64,000 bases of DNA from Bolinopsis microptera. Lineage: Eukaryota; Ctenophora; Tentaculata; Lobata; Bolinopsidae. The first letter of the stretch is position 1; each line of letters begins with the position of its first letter. The notes beneath the pieces are model-generated. The model was given only the letters and a program-made list of their open reading frames with translations, searched no databases and was not told the DNA's origin. Positions 2,189-64,000 of this stretch are shown here, in pieces. The position numbers were made by a program, and so were the translations under genes. The DNA lies in assembly GCF_026151205.1 (NCBI RefSeq), contig NC_087077.1, positions 7,865,983 to 7,929,982 of the forward strand. The letters are read 5' to 3'.

Positions 2189-2429
2189 TTAACCCATTAG
2201 GGACGATAGGGTCGTTTTTATGACCCACCTTTTCTAGACGAAAAACCAAATTACTAAACGCTATAACGAATCTATAGCATATATGCTCAAAATTTATTGG
2301 GCTACGTATAATGAAGCCCAATAAATTTTGAGTATATATGCTATAGATTCGTTATAGCGTTTAGTAATTTGGTTTTTCGTCTAGAAAAGGTGGGTCATAA
2401 AAACGACCCTATCGTCCCTAATGGGTTAA
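2189..2429. mobile_element. TTAA-flanked foldback MITE (piggyBac-like)
   Basis: A 233-bp element (2193-2425) is almost entirely one inverted repeat: each arm is over 100 bp and the two arms mirror each other around about 2300-2320. It starts CCCATTAGGGACGATAGGG and ends with the reverse complement of this. It is flanked on both sides by TTAA (2189-2192 and 2426-2429). TTAA target duplication with termini beginning CCC and ending GGG is the known signature of piggyBac-type elements. There is no ORF, so it is non-autonomous. The near-identity of the arms suggests a young copy or hairpin-type conversion. Confidence 0.85.
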
Positions 2430-22100: not shown

Positions 22101-24278
22101 TTGTATAAATATTACACTAGCGTAATCATTTAGAAACCTCCTCCTTCCTACTCAGTGATAATGTAATATGCGAACGAACCCTGAAGCGATACGTTCATCA
22201 ACAAAAATTTAACTGTAAGAATACAGTTAAGTTAGAATAGCAAACATGAAACTTTGAAGATAACTGATCAACATAATTTAACAGTAACACAACTGCGAAA
22301 GAATTAATCATTGACGCAGATTAATATTGTACTTTGTCGACACTCGAAATATTGATAGAGTTTGCCACAACTCAAACAATAAACAACATGAAATATGATT
22401 TTTATAGTACGACATAAATCAAGTGAGTGGGATTTAAGTTTTCAAACTTTGAATCAAGGCAGATTTAGCTTATAACATTTTACAGTTTTTAAGTTCTCCA
22501 AATTCTAATCACAATATGTACTCATTCATTGACACTACGACTAGAGAATAAACACTGAACAACATAACGTTACACACAGTAAGAATTTACCCCTGAAGAT
22601 AAGGTCACTATGGTAACAGAAGGACCACGCTTATCACACAAAGAATGGAAGACATGAGTATCAAACCCGTGTACTGAAGCCCTGAAACATTGTTCTACAG
22701 TTGATACTCAAGAGACGGTATAAGAGCCAGTATAAGAGCCGCTATAAGAGTCAGTATAAGAGCCGGTATAAGAGCTGGTATAAGAGCCAGTATCAGAGTC
22801 AGTATAAGAGTCAGTATTAGAGCCGCTGTAAGAGCCAGTATAAGAGCCGGTATAAGAGCTGGTATAAGAGTCAGTATAAGAGCCGGTATAAGAGTCAGCA
22901 TAAGAGCCGCTATAAGAGCCGGTATAAGAGCCGCTATAAGAGCCGGTATAGGAGCCAGTATCAGATTCAGTATAAGAGCCAGTATAAGAGCCGGTATAAG
23001 AGCCAGTATAAGAGTCAGTATAAGAGCCGGTATAAGAGCCAGTATCAGATTCAGTATAAAAGTCAGTATAAGAGCCGGTATAAGAGCCGGTATAAGAGCC
23101 AGTATAAGAGCCAGTATAAGAGCCGGTATAAGAGCCGGTATAAGAGCCGGTAAAAGAGTCAATATAAGAGCCGGTATAAGAGCCAGTATCAGAGTCAGTA
23201 TAAGAGTCAGTATAAGAGCCGCTATAAGAGCCGGTATAAGAGCCGGAGTAAGAGTCAGTATAAGAGCCGGTATAAGAGCCGGTATAGGAGCCGGTATAAG
23301 AGCCAGTATAAGAGTCAGCATAAGAGCCAGTATAAGAGCCAGTATAAGAGTCAGTATAAGAGCCGGTATAAGAGTCAGTATAAGAGCCGGTATAAGAGCC
23401 GGTATAAGAGCCGGTATAAGAGCCAGTATAAGAGCCGGTATAAGAGCCGGTATAAGAGCCAGTATTAGAGCCAGTATAAGAGCCGGTATAAGAGCCGGTA
23501 TAAGAGCCGGTATAAAGCAGGGTTTTTAGCAAGGAACCTCTCGATCACATTTTGTACTTTTCACTTCAAAAGGAACCGTATTTCAGTCACGATCAAGATC
23601 GAGATTCTGGTTTACATTAAAACATATATAACTTTTGGTCCCTGGCATTTATCAATTACTGTCCCCTTGTCTGTGCCAGGATTCAGATCGACAGATATTT
23701 TCTTGTAAAGAAACCAACTATTGTTTGTAATCCTTCAGCCAAACGCAAAGACGAATGTTTTTTCACGAAAATTGAATGCAAAAGAGTCACAAACGTAGTC
23801 TTTATATCGACTATAATGAAGGTATTGTCAACATTTTCCGCGATTTTGTCAAAGATATGAGGATTCTGGCGCTAAAATGTTGCTCAACCACAGACTAATA
23901 AATATTAAACGGTAAACCTAGCCATGTGTGCCTCACTCGCTTTTATATCGCTATTAGTAGAGGCAAGCATAATAATGTTTTGAATAATTTGGAAAGTTCG
24001 TAGATTCCTCTACAGGGTCAATGGTCATCGAATAGTTCGACCGCCCTTGTTTACTACAATGTGGATGTTTTGAAGGGGTATCCTTTCAGAACACATTCTC
24101 AGAATACCATATCAAAACATAATACTACCTCAGTCTCCAACTCACCAATAACTAAAATAAGAGATAACAAATGCTGCACTTACTGGTAAAGGGGCAGTAG
24201 TATAAGTCGGCTATCTCCTATCAATCTTCTGATCTGTCTTTCGTCAAGGGGGCTCAGTGTGGAGTTCCCCATCGTCGT
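19130..24278 (-). CDS. TLDc domain + IFI44-type GTPase protein
   Basis: Eleven exons with fully compatible phases encode 536 aa: 24278-24184 (ATG at 24272), 22681-22591, 21958-21848, 21686-21558, 21327-21213, 21090-21048, 20862-20768, 20611-20508, 20329-20193, 20041-19863 and 19647-19130. Exons 1-5 form a TLDc domain (HGFDTHVFHSLCDKRGP, CFGCYTSAGW, KKAFLFRAKD, DPDLGPFFGSS, VTDIEVFDA). Exons 6-11 form a P-loop GTPase of the IFI44 type: P-loop GPIGSGKSS around residue 225, DTPG (G3) near 281, and TKTD (G4) near 373. A Ser-rich tail of about 80 residues ends the protein. IFI44-like proteins are linked to interferon or stress responses in vertebrates and are expanded in many invertebrates. An immune or stress role here is inference. 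All three GTPase motifs look intact. The start at MGNS is plausible, but the reading frame is open across the upstream acceptor, so five more exons may precede it. Confidence 0.92.
22026..22181. mobile_element. short MITE, GGGGTCGTTCACATATTA family
   Basis: The element begins GGGGTCGTTCACATATTA and ends in a near reverse complement (TAATATGCGAACGAACCC). Two internal CCTCCTCCTT tracts also recur. It sits in the intron between exons 2 and 3 of the TLDc-GTPase gene. Related termini occur at 29101, 30926, about 50522 and about 55579. The termini resemble those described for ISL2EU-like DNA transposons; that assignment is tentative because no clear target duplication is visible. Confidence 0.6.
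22708..23517. repeat. 12-bp minisatellite, about 67 units
   Basis: About 810 bp of tandem 12-mers has consensus GAGCCGGTATAA on the plus strand. Variants are GAGCCAGTATAA, GAGTCAGTATAA and GAGCCGCTATAA. It lies in the 1.5-kb intron between exons 1 and 2 of the TLDc-GTPase gene, starting only about 27 bp from the exon 2 acceptor. Because the unit is a multiple of three, long open frames exist: Ser-Tyr-Thr-Gly repeats (274 codons) and an Ile/Leu/Pro/Ala frame (208 codons). Both stop before exon 2. I regard it as intronic, not coding. Confidence 0.95.
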
Positions 24279-41535: not shown

Positions 41536-44120
41536 GTGAGTGGCTAAGCGAGAGCTCAATATTCTAACAAGGAAGTACGGGAAAAACCCCTCGGACGCCC
41601 TTCTACGAATCCGCTTCTACTCTAGGAAGAAGGACTATAAAAAATTGTTAAAAAGGAAAAAGGCTGTTTTCTTCCAAGAGTTAAACCAGGAAATTCTGCA
41701 GGAAAATAAGATTTCGTGGAAGAACTTGAAGAAACTGAAGAAGTTTAACGAAAAACCCTCCAAGCTGGACATATTCGACATGGCGAAGTTCTACCAATTC
41801 TTTCTGGATCTCTACAAAAAGAAGGATACAAACTTCCCACAGAATAGAACAGTGACTAAAGCAAATGAACAAATAATGAGCATACTAAATGATGAGATAT
41901 CATCGAAAGAGGTTGTACATGCGGTGAAAACACTTAAGAATGGTAAGGCAGTTGGACTAGATTGTTTACTCAATGAGCAGCTTAAGTCTGCCGCCCAGAA
42001 CCACTGCGCTCTCTCAGTGTTAGTTAAGCTCTTTAATGGTTGCTTGGACCTTGGTGTCTACCCATGGAACACTACGATTGTGAGCCCACTCCACAAGAAA
42101 GGATGTATCTACGACCCCGATAACTACAGAGCCATCGCGATCGGGAGCAACCTTGGCAAACTTTTCGCGACAATCCTATTGGACCGTTTGCTAAAATTCA
42201 GGAAGGAACATTGCCCGGACACAGTAAACCAGCTTGGCTTCTGTAAGAATGCTAGAACTGTGGATCATCTGTTCACCCTTTCCACTTGTGTAGACAAATA
42301 CGTGAATAACAAAGGACAAAGACTCTATTCTTGTTTCGTGGATTTTCGCAAAGCTTTCGACTCCATCAGTCGTGAAGCTCTTCTGTACAAGCTCTCAACC
42401 CTTGGTATAGATGGAAAATTCCTAAAATGTCTAGAACATATGTACAAGAATTCCAAAGCTAAGATCAAGCTGATCGCCAAAATATCAGACTCATTTGATA
42501 TCCTTGCAGGTACGGAGCAGGGCCACCCAATGAGCCCCGAACTATTCAAAACTTACATCCACGAACTTTCGGAACGACTGAACAGTGTTCAAGACATCTC
42601 AAGTCCATTGCTGAATGAAACTATTCTGACCCACCTCTTGTGGGCAGATGATCTTGTCCTCCTCGCACTTTCGAAAGAAAGTCTTCAGGTCATGATCTCT
42701 GAACTTGAGTCATTCTGCAGAGAATGGGGGCTCACGGTGAACACCAAGAAAACCGCCATCATGATTTTTAATAAAAGTGGAAGGCAACTCAAAGAGAGTT
42801 ACGGTTTTCAGTACATGGGAGCAACAATCCCATCAGCGAAAACATATTGCTATTTAGGGATCACCTTCTCACTGTCGGGCAGCTTTAAGACAGCACTAAA
42901 CCTTCTGCGACAAAAAGCTCTCCGGGCATACTTTGGACTGAAAAGTGAAGTAGACCTTAACAATATATCCAAGGTCGCAGTTCTTAAACTGCTCGACTCC
43001 CTCATACTGCCAGTTGTATCGTACGGAGTGGAAGTCTGGATCAGCAGTAGCTCAGGAATTAAGGCTTTTGCCAGCAAAACTGACAATACGAAGCAATCCC
43101 CACTGGCAGGCATTGCAGCTGACCCATTCGAAAGAATGCACCTCGCCATCCTTAAATGGACCCTTGGAGTTGGCAAATCTACATCTAACGCAGCTGTTTG
43201 GGGAGACTGCGGAAGAACCCCTATTGTAATTCGATATGTTAAACAAGTCACCGATTTCCATAATCGCCTTGCAAGACTTGAACTAGAAGACTCACCAGCC
43301 CTAGCCAGGCACGCTTTTGCTGAGCAGAAGAAACTTGATTTAGGTTGGTTCAGGGCACTGGAATCAATGCTAATGATACTCGACGAGAACAAACTTGAAC
43401 ATCAACTTTACAACCCATTGTTATGTCAGGAAAGGGCACATAACCGATTTATCAATCCATGGGAAACAGAAAGACAAAGCAATAAGAAGCTTACGTTCTA
43501 TAATAAAGTTAAAGGTGCTTTCGAGCAGGAGCCGTACCTCACGCTACCGTCGAGAACTGGAAGCAACTTAGTGGCTAGGATCCGAATGAGCGGACATAAG
43601 CTAAACGTAGAAACTGGAAGATATGGGAGCAGAACTGGAAGTCAACATCACAGAATTTGTGAATTCTGCAGCGAAAAGTCCATGATGGAGCTCTTTGTTA
43701 ATCTTCCTTGTGTTGATCCGATAATAGAAGATGAAGAACACTTCCTTAGAACATGTCCCAGGTACCATTCCAGTAGGACTAACATGAAGGAGCCCACAAA
43801 GTCATTACTATTTCATGACATGAAGAGCCTCTTTCTACCGGAGCACATAGTGGAATTCACCAAGTTCGTCGCTCAGCTATGCAGAACACGATTCCCTATA
43901 ATAAAGAAGAAACACGAACATTAGTGTCTCAGTACGGGATATCACATTTTCTCCACAGCCCCTTCATTTTCACTTTTTCTTTACACTCATCAAACACCTT
44001 ATTGGTAACGGATTTTCTATTTGGATTTCGGACTTTGACCTTTAGCTATGCTGATCTGACATTACCTCACTGTAATATAGATCTATTTTTTGTAAACCTT
44101 GTAAACCTTGTAAACCTTGG
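41536..44120 (+). mobile_element. 5'-truncated LINE with open RT ORF
   Basis: The copy starts inside ORF2 at about 41536. It contains the whole RT and C-terminal parts and ends in three copies of TTGTAAACC (about 44090-44119), a short tandem tail as seen at LINE 3' ends. No endonuclease domain or 5' UTR is present, which fits 5' truncation during target-primed insertion. The single uninterrupted 794-codon frame shows it is young. Confidence 0.85.
41540..43924 (+). CDS. non-LTR reverse transcriptase (partial ORF2)
   Basis: The frame of 794 codons has no ATG at its start; a stop lies just upstream at 41537 and coding begins with AKRELNILTRKYGKNPSD, a linker normally found between endonuclease and RT. 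RT motifs in order: KNGKAVGLDCLLNEQLK, PDNYRAIAIGSNLGKL, SCFVDFRKAFDSI, TEQGHPMSPELF, and the catalytic WADD (residues about 368-371, a variant of the usual Y/FADD). The C-terminal region has a CxxC-H-C zinc motif (HRICEFCSEK then EEHFLRTCPRY). All catalytic aspartates are present, but without its endonuclease and 5' end it should not move by itself. The clade is not resolved by eye. Confidence 0.9.
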   Translation: MAKRELNILTRKYGKNPSDALLRIRFYSRKKDYKKLLKRKKAVFFQELNQEILQENKISWKNLKKLKKFNEKPSKLDIFDMAKFYQFFLDLYKKKDTNFPQNRTVTKANEQIMSILNDEISSKEVVHAVKTLKNGKAVGLDCLLNEQLKSAAQNHCALSVLVKLFNGCLDLGVYPWNTTIVSPLHKKGCIYDPDNYRAIAIGSNLGKLFATILLDRLLKFRKEHCPDTVNQLGFCKNARTVDHLFTLSTCVDKYVNNKGQRLYSCFVDFRKAFDSISREALLYKLSTLGIDGKFLKCLEHMYKNSKAKIKLIAKISDSFDILAGTEQGHPMSPELFKTYIHELSERLNSVQDISSPLLNETILTHLLWADDLVLLALSKESLQVMISELESFCREWGLTVNTKKTAIMIFNKSGRQLKESYGFQYMGATIPSAKTYCYLGITFSLSGSFKTALNLLRQKALRAYFGLKSEVDLNNISKVAVLKLLDSLILPVVSYGVEVWISSSSGIKAFASKTDNTKQSPLAGIAADPFERMHLAILKWTLGVGKSTSNAAVWGDCGRTPIVIRYVKQVTDFHNRLARLELEDSPALARHAFAEQKKLDLGWFRALESMLMILDENKLEHQLYNPLLCQERAHNRFINPWETERQSNKKLTFYNKVKGAFEQEPYLTLPSRTGSNLVARIRMSGHKLNVETGRYGSRTGSQHHRICEFCSEKSMMELFVNLPCVDPIIEDEEHFLRTCPRYHSSRTNMKEPTKSLLFHDMKSLFLPEHIVEFTKFVAQLCRTRFPIIKKKHEH

Positions 44121-59051: not shown

Positions 59052-62000
59052 TACCTGTCTAGGGGGAGGGACGGCTTCCACTCCGCTCAATGACGCTCAA
59101 ACTAGCACAAAAAAGAAGAGACGCCAAAAAAAGTTAAAAACTACTATTGCAGCACGCAATAAGCAGTCTGAAACTTACTCTGTCACCCAAATTAATCTCA
59201 AACGCAAGTTCAATGCATGGAAAACCCTCCTTATCAACACTCACGGCCGGAGTAGTGTAATATGGTAAGCTAGTTGCAGCAGTATTTATATATATATTAG
59301 GCTTTTTAGATCTTTTAGAATATTCTAGTATAAGTATTGAATAACCGTTAGGATTAGTATAAGATTAGATTAGATTAGTGGAATAGATTATGGATGGTTT
59401 TGCGGAGGAAGGCACGTGTTAGTCAGGTTAGCTAGTTAAGTTAGGTTATTGGACAGACTGGGCCGCGCGGTGTCACGTGGTTCGCCATGTGATGTCACGT
59501 GACCCAGTGCTGATAGGTTTTGCTTGCCCCGTTAGCGGCAGTTCTTCGGGAAGCATTTAACGGTAAGGTTGTAAAAGTTACCGCTTCCGAGGACAGTGTA
59601 GCGTGGCCTTCGAGTCGCTAGTCTTGGTTTATTGATCTAATAGTAATATATTACCTTTCGAGACTTATTGTTCGAACCCCCTGTTTCCTTTGTTCCTACC
59701 TAACTTAGGACTCGATCAAGTCATTCGATCATTTAAAGTTGTACGGCACTCAGTAGCCAGTAAGAGCTAAAGTGAAATTGCAGAGCTTGAGAGCTAGAGA
59801 TTTGCAGGTATTCGTGTACGAGACTACGACATCGTACCCGTATATTTCTTTAAGTACCGCGTACGATACTTCAAGATCGTATCCGTGTATTTCTTAAGTA
59901 CTGTGTACGACACTTCTCTATCGTACCCTTGTACATTTTAATTACCCGTGTACGCCACTTCGTTACCGTACCTTTGTGAGCAGGCAGAGTTTACCATCGG
60001 TACGCCACGGGAGGACTGTTCTGGTGCCTACCTTGTTTTACACTAGGAGAAATCCAATCATTCTTGCAACAGAACCGTACTCTAATAACAAAAACCTAAT
60101 ACCACCCATCAATAAGGATCTCACCCAATATTACTACAAGGTCGGGGATAAAAGACCCCGTGCCGCTATTGTACTGCACAAAAACCTGACAGTAAAATGT
60201 TGGGAACTTACACAATTCACAACAACCGATCAAGTGGCCATTAAAATCCAACTCAGCTCGACAGAACTCATTCTGGCAGCTTCGTACATGGATATAAATG
60301 GGCCGGTACCGCCACAAGAAACATCACCTCTAGCAAAATACGCAAATGATAACAACATCCCGCTCATTATAGGGTCGGACACCAATTCCCACCACACCCT
60401 TTGGGGGAACAAGGCATGCAATAAAAGGGGAGAGGAGCTTCTTGACTTTCTCTCCTCCCTAGGGCTGTCATGTGCCAACAAAGGATCATCCCCAACCTTC
60501 CTCAACTCTCGAGGCCACAACTCAATTATCGATCTCACAATAACAAACCAGTTGGGAGGAGATCTCATTAGTAACTGGCATGTTAGTGACCTTTACTCCA
60601 ACTCTGACCATCGCTATATTATGTTCGATATAACTACAGGGCCAAAGAAGGAACCCAAACAGATCCGACTAGTCAAAAACACTGACTGGGACAGATTTGA
60701 TGAGATCCTATTGAATAACCCCAACCTTAACAACACACAAATCAACACTACGACTGAAATTGATCACAAAATAGACATAATCAATACTGCACTAAAGGAA
60801 GCCTTCGAGGAGGCATGCCCCATAACTTACATCTCAAGTTCCGTCCGCAAACCCCCCTGGCTAACTCAAGAAGTAGAGGAAGCACAGAGGGGAATAAGAC
60901 AAAAACTGATTACTGCCCGCAAAAAGAAGACTGATGCCCTGTGGCTCGCTCTTAGAGAGAGCAACAAACAATACAACAGACTTATAACCAACTCCCAGCG
61001 TAATGCCTGGAGAACTTTTTGTCAGGAAACAGAGTCTGTTAAGGAATCCGGAAGGATGAATAAGATTCTGAAATCCTGTAACGACAACAAACATACACTA
61101 GAAGCCGTTTACAAACCAAACGGAGACATCACCAAAAATGCAGAGGAGACATTGGAGGTCATGACACGAACCCACTTCAAGGATAGTGTCACTGATCCGC
61201 CAGTGCCTCCACCTGGTCCTCTACCAATCACCACCACCTTACTCAATACCATCTACAGCCCAGACAGAATCGAGGAGGCTCTTAAATCCTTCGATCCGTT
61301 GAAAGCTTCTGGACCCGACACCCTCAAACCTATCATCATACAGAAAGCTTGGACACACATCAAAGACATCACCAGAACCATTATGACAAAAAATCATGAA
61401 ACCCAACACATTCCAACTTTGTGGAAAGAATCCCTTGGAATCTTTCTCCCAAAGCCTGGAAAAACTGACTACAACCAACCAAAGTCATTTCGCACTATCA
61501 CCCTTTCTCCAGTGATGTTAAAACTACAGGAGAAGGTGATACTGTGGCATATGCAACACGACCTTAAGGGGGCATACACCAAATCTGTCCAGACCAAATG
61601 ACCTCATAGGCAGTTCAGTGACCTTCTAGCGCACCGTTTCCACACCAAAAAAAATTATTTTGAGAATACCCATTTTTGTAATCGACCATTTCCTGGTTAA
61701 GAGTGCATTTTCGGAAAAAATTATTTTGTGGTTGAGACGCTATAAGTTAATCATTTCTTGCGGTATCGGGTTGAAATTTTGCTCGCCGTTTATTCACATC
61801 TATTTCAAGGTGTGTGTAAAATCTTGATATCGTATCTAAAAAGGCTGGTGTGTTATGAATTTTTAAAGTCAAAAAGCTAAAATTGTCCTTTTAAGGCTTA
61901 TTTTAACAAAAAGTCAGTCAGGGAAGATCGGATTATTTGATGCTTGACATCAAATTGTTCTCTGAATTCTGACACAGTTTTTGATGCCCTCAAAAATGTT

Positions 62001-64000
62001 TTTACTCATTCACCTTCTGATCTATTGGACCTCAAAGCCAAACAACAAATTAAGACACATTTTTCGTTTTTAATATTTACCGATTTTTCCAAAATTTTGA
62101 TAGGAATGTGCTAGTGACTTTTTGAAGGGTGAAAAATAACCGCAACTAGCACATTTATATATGAGTTATGAACAAAAAAACACCCTAAAATGCTTCCCTT
62201 TGAAGTTATGGGAGAAAATGTGATTTTTTATCTGCAAAGCCAAAAAATCACATTTTCTCCCATAACTTCAAAGGGAAGCATTTTAGAGTGTTTTTTTGTT
62301 TATAACTCATATATAAATGTGCTAGTTGCGGTTATTTTGCACCCTTCAAAAAGTCACTAGCACATTCCTATCAAAATTTTGGAAAAATCGGTAAATATTA
62401 AAAACGAAAAATGTGTCTTAATTTGTTGTTTGGCTTTGAGGTCCAATAGATCAGAAGGTGAATGAGTAAAAACATTTTTGAGGGCATCAAAAACTGCGCC
62501 AGAATTCAGAGAACAATTTGATGTCAAGCATCAAATAATCCGATCTTCCCTGACTGACTTTTTGTTAAAATAAGCCTGAAAAGGACAATTTTAGCTTTTT
62601 GACTTTAAAAATTCATAACACACCAGCCTTTTTAGATACGATATCAAGATTTTACACACACCTTGAAATAGATGTGAATAAACGGCGAGCAAAATTTCAA
62701 CCCGATACCGCAAGAAATGATTAACTTATAGCGTCTCAACCACAAAATAATTTTTTCCGAAAATGCACTCTTAACCAGGAAATGGTCGATTACAAAAATG
62801 GGTATTCTCAAAATAATTTTTTTTGGTGTGGAAACGGTGCGCTAGAAGGTCACTGAACTGCCTATGAGGTCATTTGGTCTGGACGGCACAAACCACTGTT
62901 TTGGTGTATGCCCCCTTAATATCGCTAAAGACATCAACAAACGACAATTTGGCTTTAAGAAAGGATGTTCAACCGAAGCAGCCCTTCATAAAGTTACTCA
63001 CACCATCGAGCGCAGGATAGCTAAGAAGGGATATGTCCTAGGCGTCTTTCTAGATATAGAGGGAGCTTTTGATAATGTCTCTTTCAAGGCTATTTCTGAC
63101 GCTATCAAGACCACGAAAGTGGATCTGGCCACAGCACAATGGATTATCAACATGGTAACTAACAGATTCATCACATTAAATCATAAGGATAAGTCGACAA
63201 GGGTTCGGATCCGGAGAGGGTGCCCTCAAGGTGGCATCCTTTCCCCTTTCCTCTGGAACCTGGTAGTCGATGATCTCCTGGCCTACACCGCAAGAGACAT
63301 ACCAGGTTATCTGCAAGCTTTTGCAGACGATCTGCTCTCTCTAGCGGAGGGGAATGATTTAGACATCATCTGGAACAGAACACGCAAAACCATCAACACA
63401 ATAGAAAAATGGTGCCAAACCAAAGATCTATCCATAAGCGCACTCAAAACACAAATAGTCATGTTTACCTGGAATAAGAAATGGACACTAAGACCTGTGG
63501 TGGTGGGTAACACCACTATAGGTCTATCCAAATCTGCCAAATTCCTAGGAGTGACCCTCGACAGCAAGCTCAATTTCAATGAACATATCACCAATACCAC
63601 CAAAAAAGCTACGGCATCCCTTATGCAATGTAGAAGAGCTGTCGGCCCCACTTGGGGTATGAGCCCTAAAACATGCAAATGGATGTACACCGCTGTCATC
63701 AGACCTATTCTATCATACTGCTGTAGTATATGGATTAGAGCAACCCAAACAGACACCAACGCGAGGAAGTTCAAACGAGTTCAGGCATTGGCATTGAGAA
63801 TGATGTCTGGTGCCATGCCTAGTACTCCCTTCATCGCACTGAACCACCTCACTAACACTCCAGATATCATACTTTTCCTGAGAGGTGAAGCAGCAAAGGG
63901 CACAGCCAGGCTTCAAGCCTATGGAAGCCTAACCCTCGAAACTATCGCCCCCAGAAAAGGTACCATCACAACTCACACCACTATCAACAAACAATTCATG
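59038..64000 (+). CDS. LINE ORF2: endonuclease-reverse transcriptase (interrupted, 3' end outside)
   Basis: Segment 1 (59038-59264) has a Lys-rich lead and the endonuclease start SVTQINLKRKFNAWKTLL. Segment 2 (60047-61563) continues with the endonuclease: ILATEPYS, GSDTNSHHTLWG, SIIDLTI and SDHRYI carry the expected catalytic E, D, N and H. It then has the RT start with DPLKASGPDTLKP. Segment 3 (62916-64000) carries FGFKKGCSTEAAL, VFLDIEGAFDNVSF, GCPQGGILSPFLWNLV and the catalytic FADD, and runs off the window. Removing the palindrome with one TTAA joins segments 2 and 3 in frame (DL then NIAKDINKRQ). Segments 1 and 2 join in frame through TG|G as with a spliced intron. All visible catalytic residues are intact. 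Confidence 0.85.
59265..60046 (+). other. 782-nt GT-AG segment inside LINE endonuclease
   Basis: The endonuclease frame stops at 59266. It resumes at 60047 after a stretch beginning GTAAGCTAG and ending TTTTACACTAG, a perfect donor and acceptor pair. Phase 2 is preserved (TG|G gives Trp). Inside are CACGTG motifs (about 59470-59505) and about 45-bp tandem repeats (59816-59975). It is either an intron or an inserted element that can act like one. No flanking target duplication was found. Confidence 0.55.
59816..59975. repeat. 45-bp tandem repeat, about 3.5 units
   Basis: Units begin at 59816, 59861, 59905 and 59950 with GTACGANACT or a near variant, followed by ATCGTACCCGTGTA-like sequence and a T-rich spacer. 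It lies in the 3' part of the intron-like segment of the LINE. Confidence 0.8.
61564..62919. mobile_element. 1.35-kb TTAA-flanked foldback element (giant palindrome)
   Basis: The element spans 61568-62915. It starts GGGGGCATACACCAAA, ends TTTGGTGTATGCCCCC, and is flanked by TTAA on both sides (61564-61567 and 62916-62919). The left arm (61568-62229) and right arm (62243-62915) are nearly identical inverted copies of about 660-670 bp around a loop of some 13 nt. The left arm lacks about 11-13 nt near its tip. There is no ORF. The TTAA target suggests mobilisation by a piggyBac-like transposase. It sits in the RT domain of a LINE; excision to a single TTAA restores the LINE frame. Confidence 0.9.

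Follow-up and report, generated by a model that had tools for sequence, protein, structure and literature searches.

A TTAA-flanked palindromic transposon family in Bolinopsis microptera with evidence of sequence exchange between its arms

Results

A palindrome within a LINE

The stretch of 64,000 nucleotides analyzed here (the window) holds a near-perfect palindrome at positions 61564-62919, 1356 bp long when both flanking TTAA copies are counted. It interrupts the reading frame of a LINE, and the features of the locus are as follows.

59898..61567, plus strand: 5' part of the host LINE frame (profile match, Exo_endo_phos_2, E 4.3e-21)
61564..61567, unstranded: left TTAA target-site copy (from the sequence; the LINE frame is restored once the flanks are fused at one TTAA)
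61568..62229, plus strand: left arm, S type, terminus GGGGGCATACACCAAATCTGTCC (sequence, repeat search)
62230..62241, unstranded: 12-nt loop ATCTGCAAAGCC, present in either orientation among other copies (repeat search, copy comparison)
62242..62915, minus strand: right arm, N type, terminus GGGGGCATACACCAAAACAGTGGTTTGTGCCGTCC (sequence, repeat search)
62916..62919, unstranded: right TTAA target-site copy (sequence)
62920..64000, plus strand: 3' part of the host LINE frame (profile match, RVT_1 from profile position 35, E 9.5e-28)

A sequence-only reading of the window had proposed a giant near-perfect palindrome with a TTAA duplication at this site. This was confirmed, with TTAA at 61564-61567 and 62916-62919 and inverted arms recovered by a repeat search at 61587-62229 and 62242-62884 (643 nt, 99% complementary). 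The arms lie 12 nt apart, so the loop is 12 nt long and not the approximately 13 nt first given. The claim of near-identical arms holds for these inner 643 nt, but the arm ends differ. The left (S) end, CCAAATCTGTCC, and the right (N) end, CCAAAACAGTGGTTTGTGCCGTCC, make the mirror slightly uneven, the left being shorter by 12 nt; the S-specific TCTG lies at 61584-61587 in the left arm, and the N-specific part of the right arm spans about 62884-62899. An outer pair at 61559-61588 and 62895-62924 (30 nt) is 87% complementary. No open reading frame longer than 56 amino acids, with ATG, GTG, or TTG starts, lies entirely within the element, in line with its earlier description as a gene-less foldback, and no tandem repeats were found in it. 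Its RNA is predicted to fold into a single hairpin with small bulges, at -1148 kcal/mol as computed for the native sequence alone.

When the flanks were joined at one TTAA, the LINE frame ran without a stop from 59898 to the end of the window. The insertion was therefore precise, and the proposed precise TTAA duplication is borne out. By inference from the same open frame, the insertion in the window is young. The earlier suggestion of a recent origin suits this insertion, but alone it leaves the pattern in the arms unexplained, because variants private to a copy tend to occur in both arms of that copy (see below).

Copies and ends across the genome

The search covered one assembly of 264,652,675 bases in 232 contigs. 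The palindrome is no chance structure: searching with the arm gave 77 matches from 40 scored of 509 candidates. The terminal 20-mer, at up to 2 mismatches, occurred 452 + 452 times, against 0 for the control; this count includes a second family, whose 20-mer differs from that of the first at two positions. At the same tolerance, S-specific ends numbered 74 + 77 = 151 and N-specific ends 110 + 91 = 201, while a 60-mer from the centre was found 32 + 48 times, damaged copies included. Reversed-pattern controls of the pattern searches returned 0. Exact 16-mer termini numbered 130 + 139 = 269 genome-wide, and TTAA stood in front of 119 + 131 = 250 of these. TTAA thus recurs at other insertions, and the outcome that would have told against the sequence-only reading, a lack of TTAA at other copies, is not what these counts show.

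With 100 places listed for each end type (of 151 S and 201 N), 57 facing pairs of ends could be formed, and all 57 joined one S with one N end. The length of these pairs was 1347-1384 bp in 37 cases, shorter in 17, and longer in 3. In line with this, every full copy that was sequenced carried S and N ends (32/32), and the shorter or interrupted copies examined that have two family ends likewise had one S-like and one N-like end.

Disrupted copies were found at 15 of 40 loci, and 13 of the 15 retain at most 67 bp of the second arm beside the loop. One of the 13, L039, was counted at 52 bp by BLAST, the ungapped walk having halted at an indel. Under uniform breaks along the arm, this central clustering has a P value of about 1e-11, which is too small since the events are not all independent; among the central breaks, L032 and L045 have flanking DNA in common, and L022 and L041 look like insertions. 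Half-elements were considered as a non-palindromic ancestor and rejected, as in the ungapped walk all six (L059, L061, L062, L063, L067, and L068) include the loop plus 0-8 bp of second-arm sequence. These one-armed copies are read, from their sequences, as broken palindromes.

A second family with similar termini

Ends of the second family, TTAAGGGGAGATACACCAAAAMCGTTTTTGCTC, occurred 115 + 113 times at up to 1 mismatch, and the 100 listed places gave 37 facing pairs, 26 of them at 1387-1420 bp. The sole full copy of this family that was read, L090, is self-complementary (93% over 1424 columns), with arms of 495 nt at 98% and inner arms of 168 nt at 92%, 90 nt lying between. It gave no BLAST match to the first family at E values up to 0.01. 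Because its two ends match, not every relative requires unlike ends. L089, a relative of L090 that is 3069 bp long with second-family ends, has only 25 terminal nt in common with the first family; it was tried as an autonomous source and rejected, having no frame of at least 100 amino acids.

Variants are shared between the two arms of a copy

Forty loci were fetched around the scored arm matches, and a full palindrome was present in 25. A comparison of 26 copies left out L072, in which no loop was found. For a set of 32 copies, L079-L083 and L087 entered from ten later loci, and L084, L085, L086, and L088 were left out, as no two of their ends lay 1280-1450 bp apart.

In the 26 copies, mean arm identity was 98.8% within a copy and 97.8% (S-S), 97.9% (N-N), or 97.5% (S-N) between copies. 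Variants present in exactly two arms fell in both arms of a single copy in 39 of 47 cases, with about 0.9 expected. With 32 copies the count was 23 of 34 (1000 shuffles: mean, 0.9; maximum, 8); in this larger set, many of the earlier doubletons had gained extra carriers. For common variants in these 32 copies, the arms were unlike in 87 copies-by-site versus 448.6 expected over 63 sites, a deficit of 0.81 that is inflated by clade structure. Beside the doubled variants, 102 single-arm variants persist in the same set.

We placed all arms of the 32 copies on a tree, omitting the first 45 columns. The arms of one copy were exclusive sisters in 16 of 32 cases, and the S/N label changed 25 times, where a history free of arm exchange would give one change. 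Measured against all other copies' arms over the same columns, the partner arm ranked first in 7 of 32 copies, shared first place in 3, and was surpassed in 22; when the ends were counted, another copy's arm was closer than the partner in 23 of 25 copies. We read this as an exchange that is real yet slower than the spread of copies, such that the resemblance between closely related copies can exceed that between the arms of a single copy. Collectively, the doubled private variants and the 25 label changes support the homogenization of arms that the sequence-only reading had suggested. At position 14, outside the S/N difference, both arms were alike in 7 of 8 carriers (26 copies), meaning either that exchange extends as far as the outer end or that the same change occurred twice within one clade. 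GC-biased conversion was tried as an explanation and set aside: the W>S to S>W ratio was 13:10 among doubled and 36:64 among single variants, which is not significant (Fisher p, 0.10).

The centre is found in both orientations

In the S-to-N direction, the loop was in the + orientation in 16 and the - orientation in 16 of the 32 sequenced copies. Of 80 centres, 55 could be assigned to a listed end by coordinates, and these gave 24 + and 31 -, a sample that overlaps the sequenced set. The copy tree required 9 loop flips (bootstrap, 8-10), 2 of them forced by well-supported branches; shuffled orientations required a mean of 11.0, and a count as low arose in 83 and 76 of 500 shuffles.

A clade of 1384-bp copies allowed the flips to be followed with linked markers. 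Eight copies were first grouped as this type by their centres; the tree left L047 outside and one was unplaced, and the six used were L071 and L079-L083, with + loops in two and - loops in four. Columns 529, 558, 599, 686, and 698 are all five of the inner markers at which the arms of L081 are unlike. Relative to L071, L082, and L083, L081 is phase-mirrored at every one of them and has the opposite loop. Columns 686 and 698 also agree with the loop in L079 (+) and L080 (-). The column 44 marker keeps its phase relative to the ends in all 6 of its carriers, 3 with each loop orientation. Since columns 529-698 invert with the loop and column 44 goes with the ends, the exchange in this clade is placed between the ends and column 529. 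The joint inversion of inner markers and loop is direct evidence of arm-to-arm crossover in this assembly. Taking all shared unlike-arm markers, at the better phase for each site, 85 of 103 cells follow the loop and 77 of 103 the ends, a modest difference; L044, outside the 1384-bp clade, violates the loop rule at column 698.

Termini and candidate mobilizers

The element is 1356 bp long and noncoding, with inverted ends, a target duplication, and 151 S and 201 N ends in the genome, all as in a MITE, and its long inverted arms occupy most of its length, as in a foldback. It works like a foldback MITE. The 4-bp TTAA duplication characteristic of Kolobok and piggyBac accompanies 250 of the 269 exact 16-mer ends. 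Termini of piggyBac begin CC. Those of the present element begin GG, and its arm was absent from 10 fetched loci of about 4 kb drawn from 26 matches to the piggyBac transposase profile PF13843; piggyBac was rejected as the mobilizer. One of these 10 loci, L053, carries the 8-mer TTAAGGGG or CCCCTTAA. The GG...CC termini have the form RR..YY, in agreement with the rule of 5'-RR and YY-3' termini given for Kolobok in the available portion of PMC9587614. TTAA target and RR..YY termini would together fit Kolobok, a resemblance that we do not extend to membership. The transposase expected of a Kolobok element is of the DDE/THAP type. No transposase tied to the ends was found: the nearest of the genome's 43 THAP matches lies 13 kb from any of the 300 listed ends (of 580 counted), and a partner could differ in its subterminal letters.

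Discussion

We consider it probable, judging from these comparisons, that the element is a nonautonomous, TTAA-specific cut-and-paste transposon of palindromic form, with Kolobok-like termini and with arms that exchange sequence. It would be mobilized in trans by a putative transposase. The arms of one copy may pair in a cruciform, in a hairpin formed at a replication fork, or across sister chromatids. Noncrossover exchange would transfer mutations from arm to arm and keep the palindrome near-perfect, exchange with crossover would flip the centre, and breakage at the hairpin tip would leave half-elements. The S/N difference may persist because exchange seldom extends into the terminal ~40 bp, or else because the transposase requires unlike ends.

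The palindrome might instead be remade at each transposition, one arm being copied from the other by template switching or hairpin-primed synthesis. Such remaking would likewise yield doubled substitutions, and L090, the full copy read from the second family (similar termini, unrelated arms), is a palindrome too, as if mobilization tends to create palindromes. In its simple form, however, remaking gives two like ends, whereas all 57 listed end pairs are S with N, and the unlike-arm markers at columns 529-698 are common to several insertions. We think this account unlikely.

An assembly artefact is also improbable, and slightly more so. Palindromes are hard to assemble, the analysis rests on the assembly and not on reads, and mixing of the reads of the two arms during assembly or polishing would make arms alike and orient loops at random; the nearly 1:1 loops, almost randomly placed on the tree, are what random placement would give. 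However, 102 single-arm variants remain alongside the doubled ones, the S and N ends remain distinct in all 32 copies, and in the 1384-bp clade the inner markers shift jointly with the loop across ~170 columns. The large contigs, listed at 15-26 Mb, suggest reads long enough to span 1.4 kb.

A recent burst from one perfect palindrome, in which the arms never exchanged and their identity reflects youth only, seems very improbable. The window copy is young by its open LINE frame, the best arm matches are 97-100% alike, and for 22 of 32 copies the partner arm is less close than some arm from another copy, all as a burst would have it. But a burst predicts separate S and N groups of arms and a single label change where the tree needs 25, and it does not give private substitutions in both arms of a copy. 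Unless the assembly is wrong, the arm tree and the doubled variants contradict it; within this assembly they exclude, as we interpret them, a history without exchange. Selection on RNA hairpin pairing, as a host siRNA source or a regulatory hairpin, is the least probable of all: the predicted transcript is almost wholly hairpin, but 102 single-arm variants persist and loop inversion is left unexplained.

Exchange between the arms of a mobile palindrome may be compared with several known systems, as these are described in the available portions of the papers cited. The Kolobok superfamily, of which T2-MITE of Xenopus is a presumed nonautonomous member, likewise has a TTAA duplication and 5'-RR...YY-3' termini; as far as those descriptions go, a body that is a single palindrome with a 12-nt loop is found only in the present element (PMC6004289, PMC9587614). 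KolobokP shares the RR..YY termini and has a repeat unit of ~450 or 660 bp at each end, but these repeats are direct and surround a coding interior, whereas those of the present element are inverted around a 12-nt loop (PMC9587614). In Galileo and Tetris, as here, most of the element consists of long inverted arms; homogenization has been suggested for the Tetris repeats, and a table for Galileo separates same-copy comparisons of TIRs. Galileo belongs to the P and Tetris to the Mutator superfamily, while the present element is TTAA-specific (PMC4079207, PMC2775673, PMC4168063). According to these sources, Tetris has duplications of 8-10 bp, a middle domain, and tandem arm repeats, in place of which the present element has the 4-bp TTAA, the 12-nt loop, and no tandem repeats.

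The goldentouch repeat of Midas cichlids is also a transposon-derived giant inverted repeat with almost identical arms, but as described it is 8.2 kb, at a single locus, and composed of two piggyBac copies, unlike the dispersed family reported here (PMC8758764). Palindromes of the primate X (PMC8981503) and of Caenorhabditis (PMC1803023) have near-identical arms, as here, and are kept alike by arm-to-arm conversion, and in Caenorhabditis the arms are reported to be closer to each other than to orthologous arms; these are single loci, in contrast to a mobile family with many replicates. From the arm divergence within a copy of ~1.2% (26 copies) and the primate X figures accessible in PMC8981503, we estimate that conversion per site may run at roughly 160 times the mutation rate, assuming equilibrium. 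Among the listed titles and opening lines of abstracts of the open-licence literature, no palindromic Kolobok MITE or loop-inverting foldback was found. What is new here is the manner of variation among copies, namely, doubled variants, flipped centres, and constant S and N ends.

A broader possibility, which we put forward as doubtful, is that palindromy is the element's mode of existence: two or more families that share one type of terminus, their bodies being unrelated, would have become giant palindromes through self-repair and through hairpins that are tolerated or favored. Long palindromes that are near-perfect and have tiny loops are regarded as unstable. If the broader idea is true, pairing of the arms lets the element mend its own mutations and outlast ordinary MITEs, and the shared transposase or the host tolerates or favors hairpins that most genomes destroy. 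In that case, the constant pairing of an S with an N end would reflect what the transposase requires, and the centre would be an invertible segment in equilibrium. The dispersed copies are replicates at separate sites (32 sequenced; 37 of the 57 listed end pairs of full length), and the products of crossover can be read directly as flipped centres. One genome could thereby yield rates of conversion, crossover, and centre breakage, together with any bias of conversion, and the palindromic copies offer a natural test of how DNA palindromes survive.

A second giant-palindrome family

One full copy of a second giant-palindrome family was read (n = 1; locus L090, G000:C1:13046305-13047730), and in this copy the terminus was related to that of family 1, the gene-less palindromic family at TTAA, whereas the arms were unrelated. 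Family-2 sequence was also found at these loci of the source genome (G000):

L076 position 573-576 (G000:C3:11430572-11430575): family-1/family-2 junction, one TTAA common to both
L089 (G000:C6:14039940-14043035): 3069-bp element bearing family-2 ends

At L076, the two elements directly adjoin with only that TTAA between them, as if one had inserted into the target copy of the other. The L089 element possessed arms of ~560 bp; its interior was rich in repeats and held no long frames.

Other repeats and frames

Another palindrome (window 2189-2429), unrelated to the 61564-62919 element, has 115-nt, 99% complementary arms and an 11-nt loop. With TTAA at each side and termini that read CCC...GGG, it resembles a palindromic MITE of the piggyBac type. 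Further features of the window were:

22695-23544: short-period repeat array, three long frames open across it (ALIPALI / SIRAGIRA / SYTGSYTG)
41540-43924: open frame, 794 aa, separate from the LINE frame interrupted by the 61564-62919 palindrome

The array resembles a minisatellite and the frame, judged by eye, a LINE reverse transcriptase.

In the genome-wide search, three THAP matches, each in a 796-aa frame, had identical scores:

C1:16946869
C1:24398622
C9:11280744

These frames possibly represent a recently mobile THAP transposase gene.
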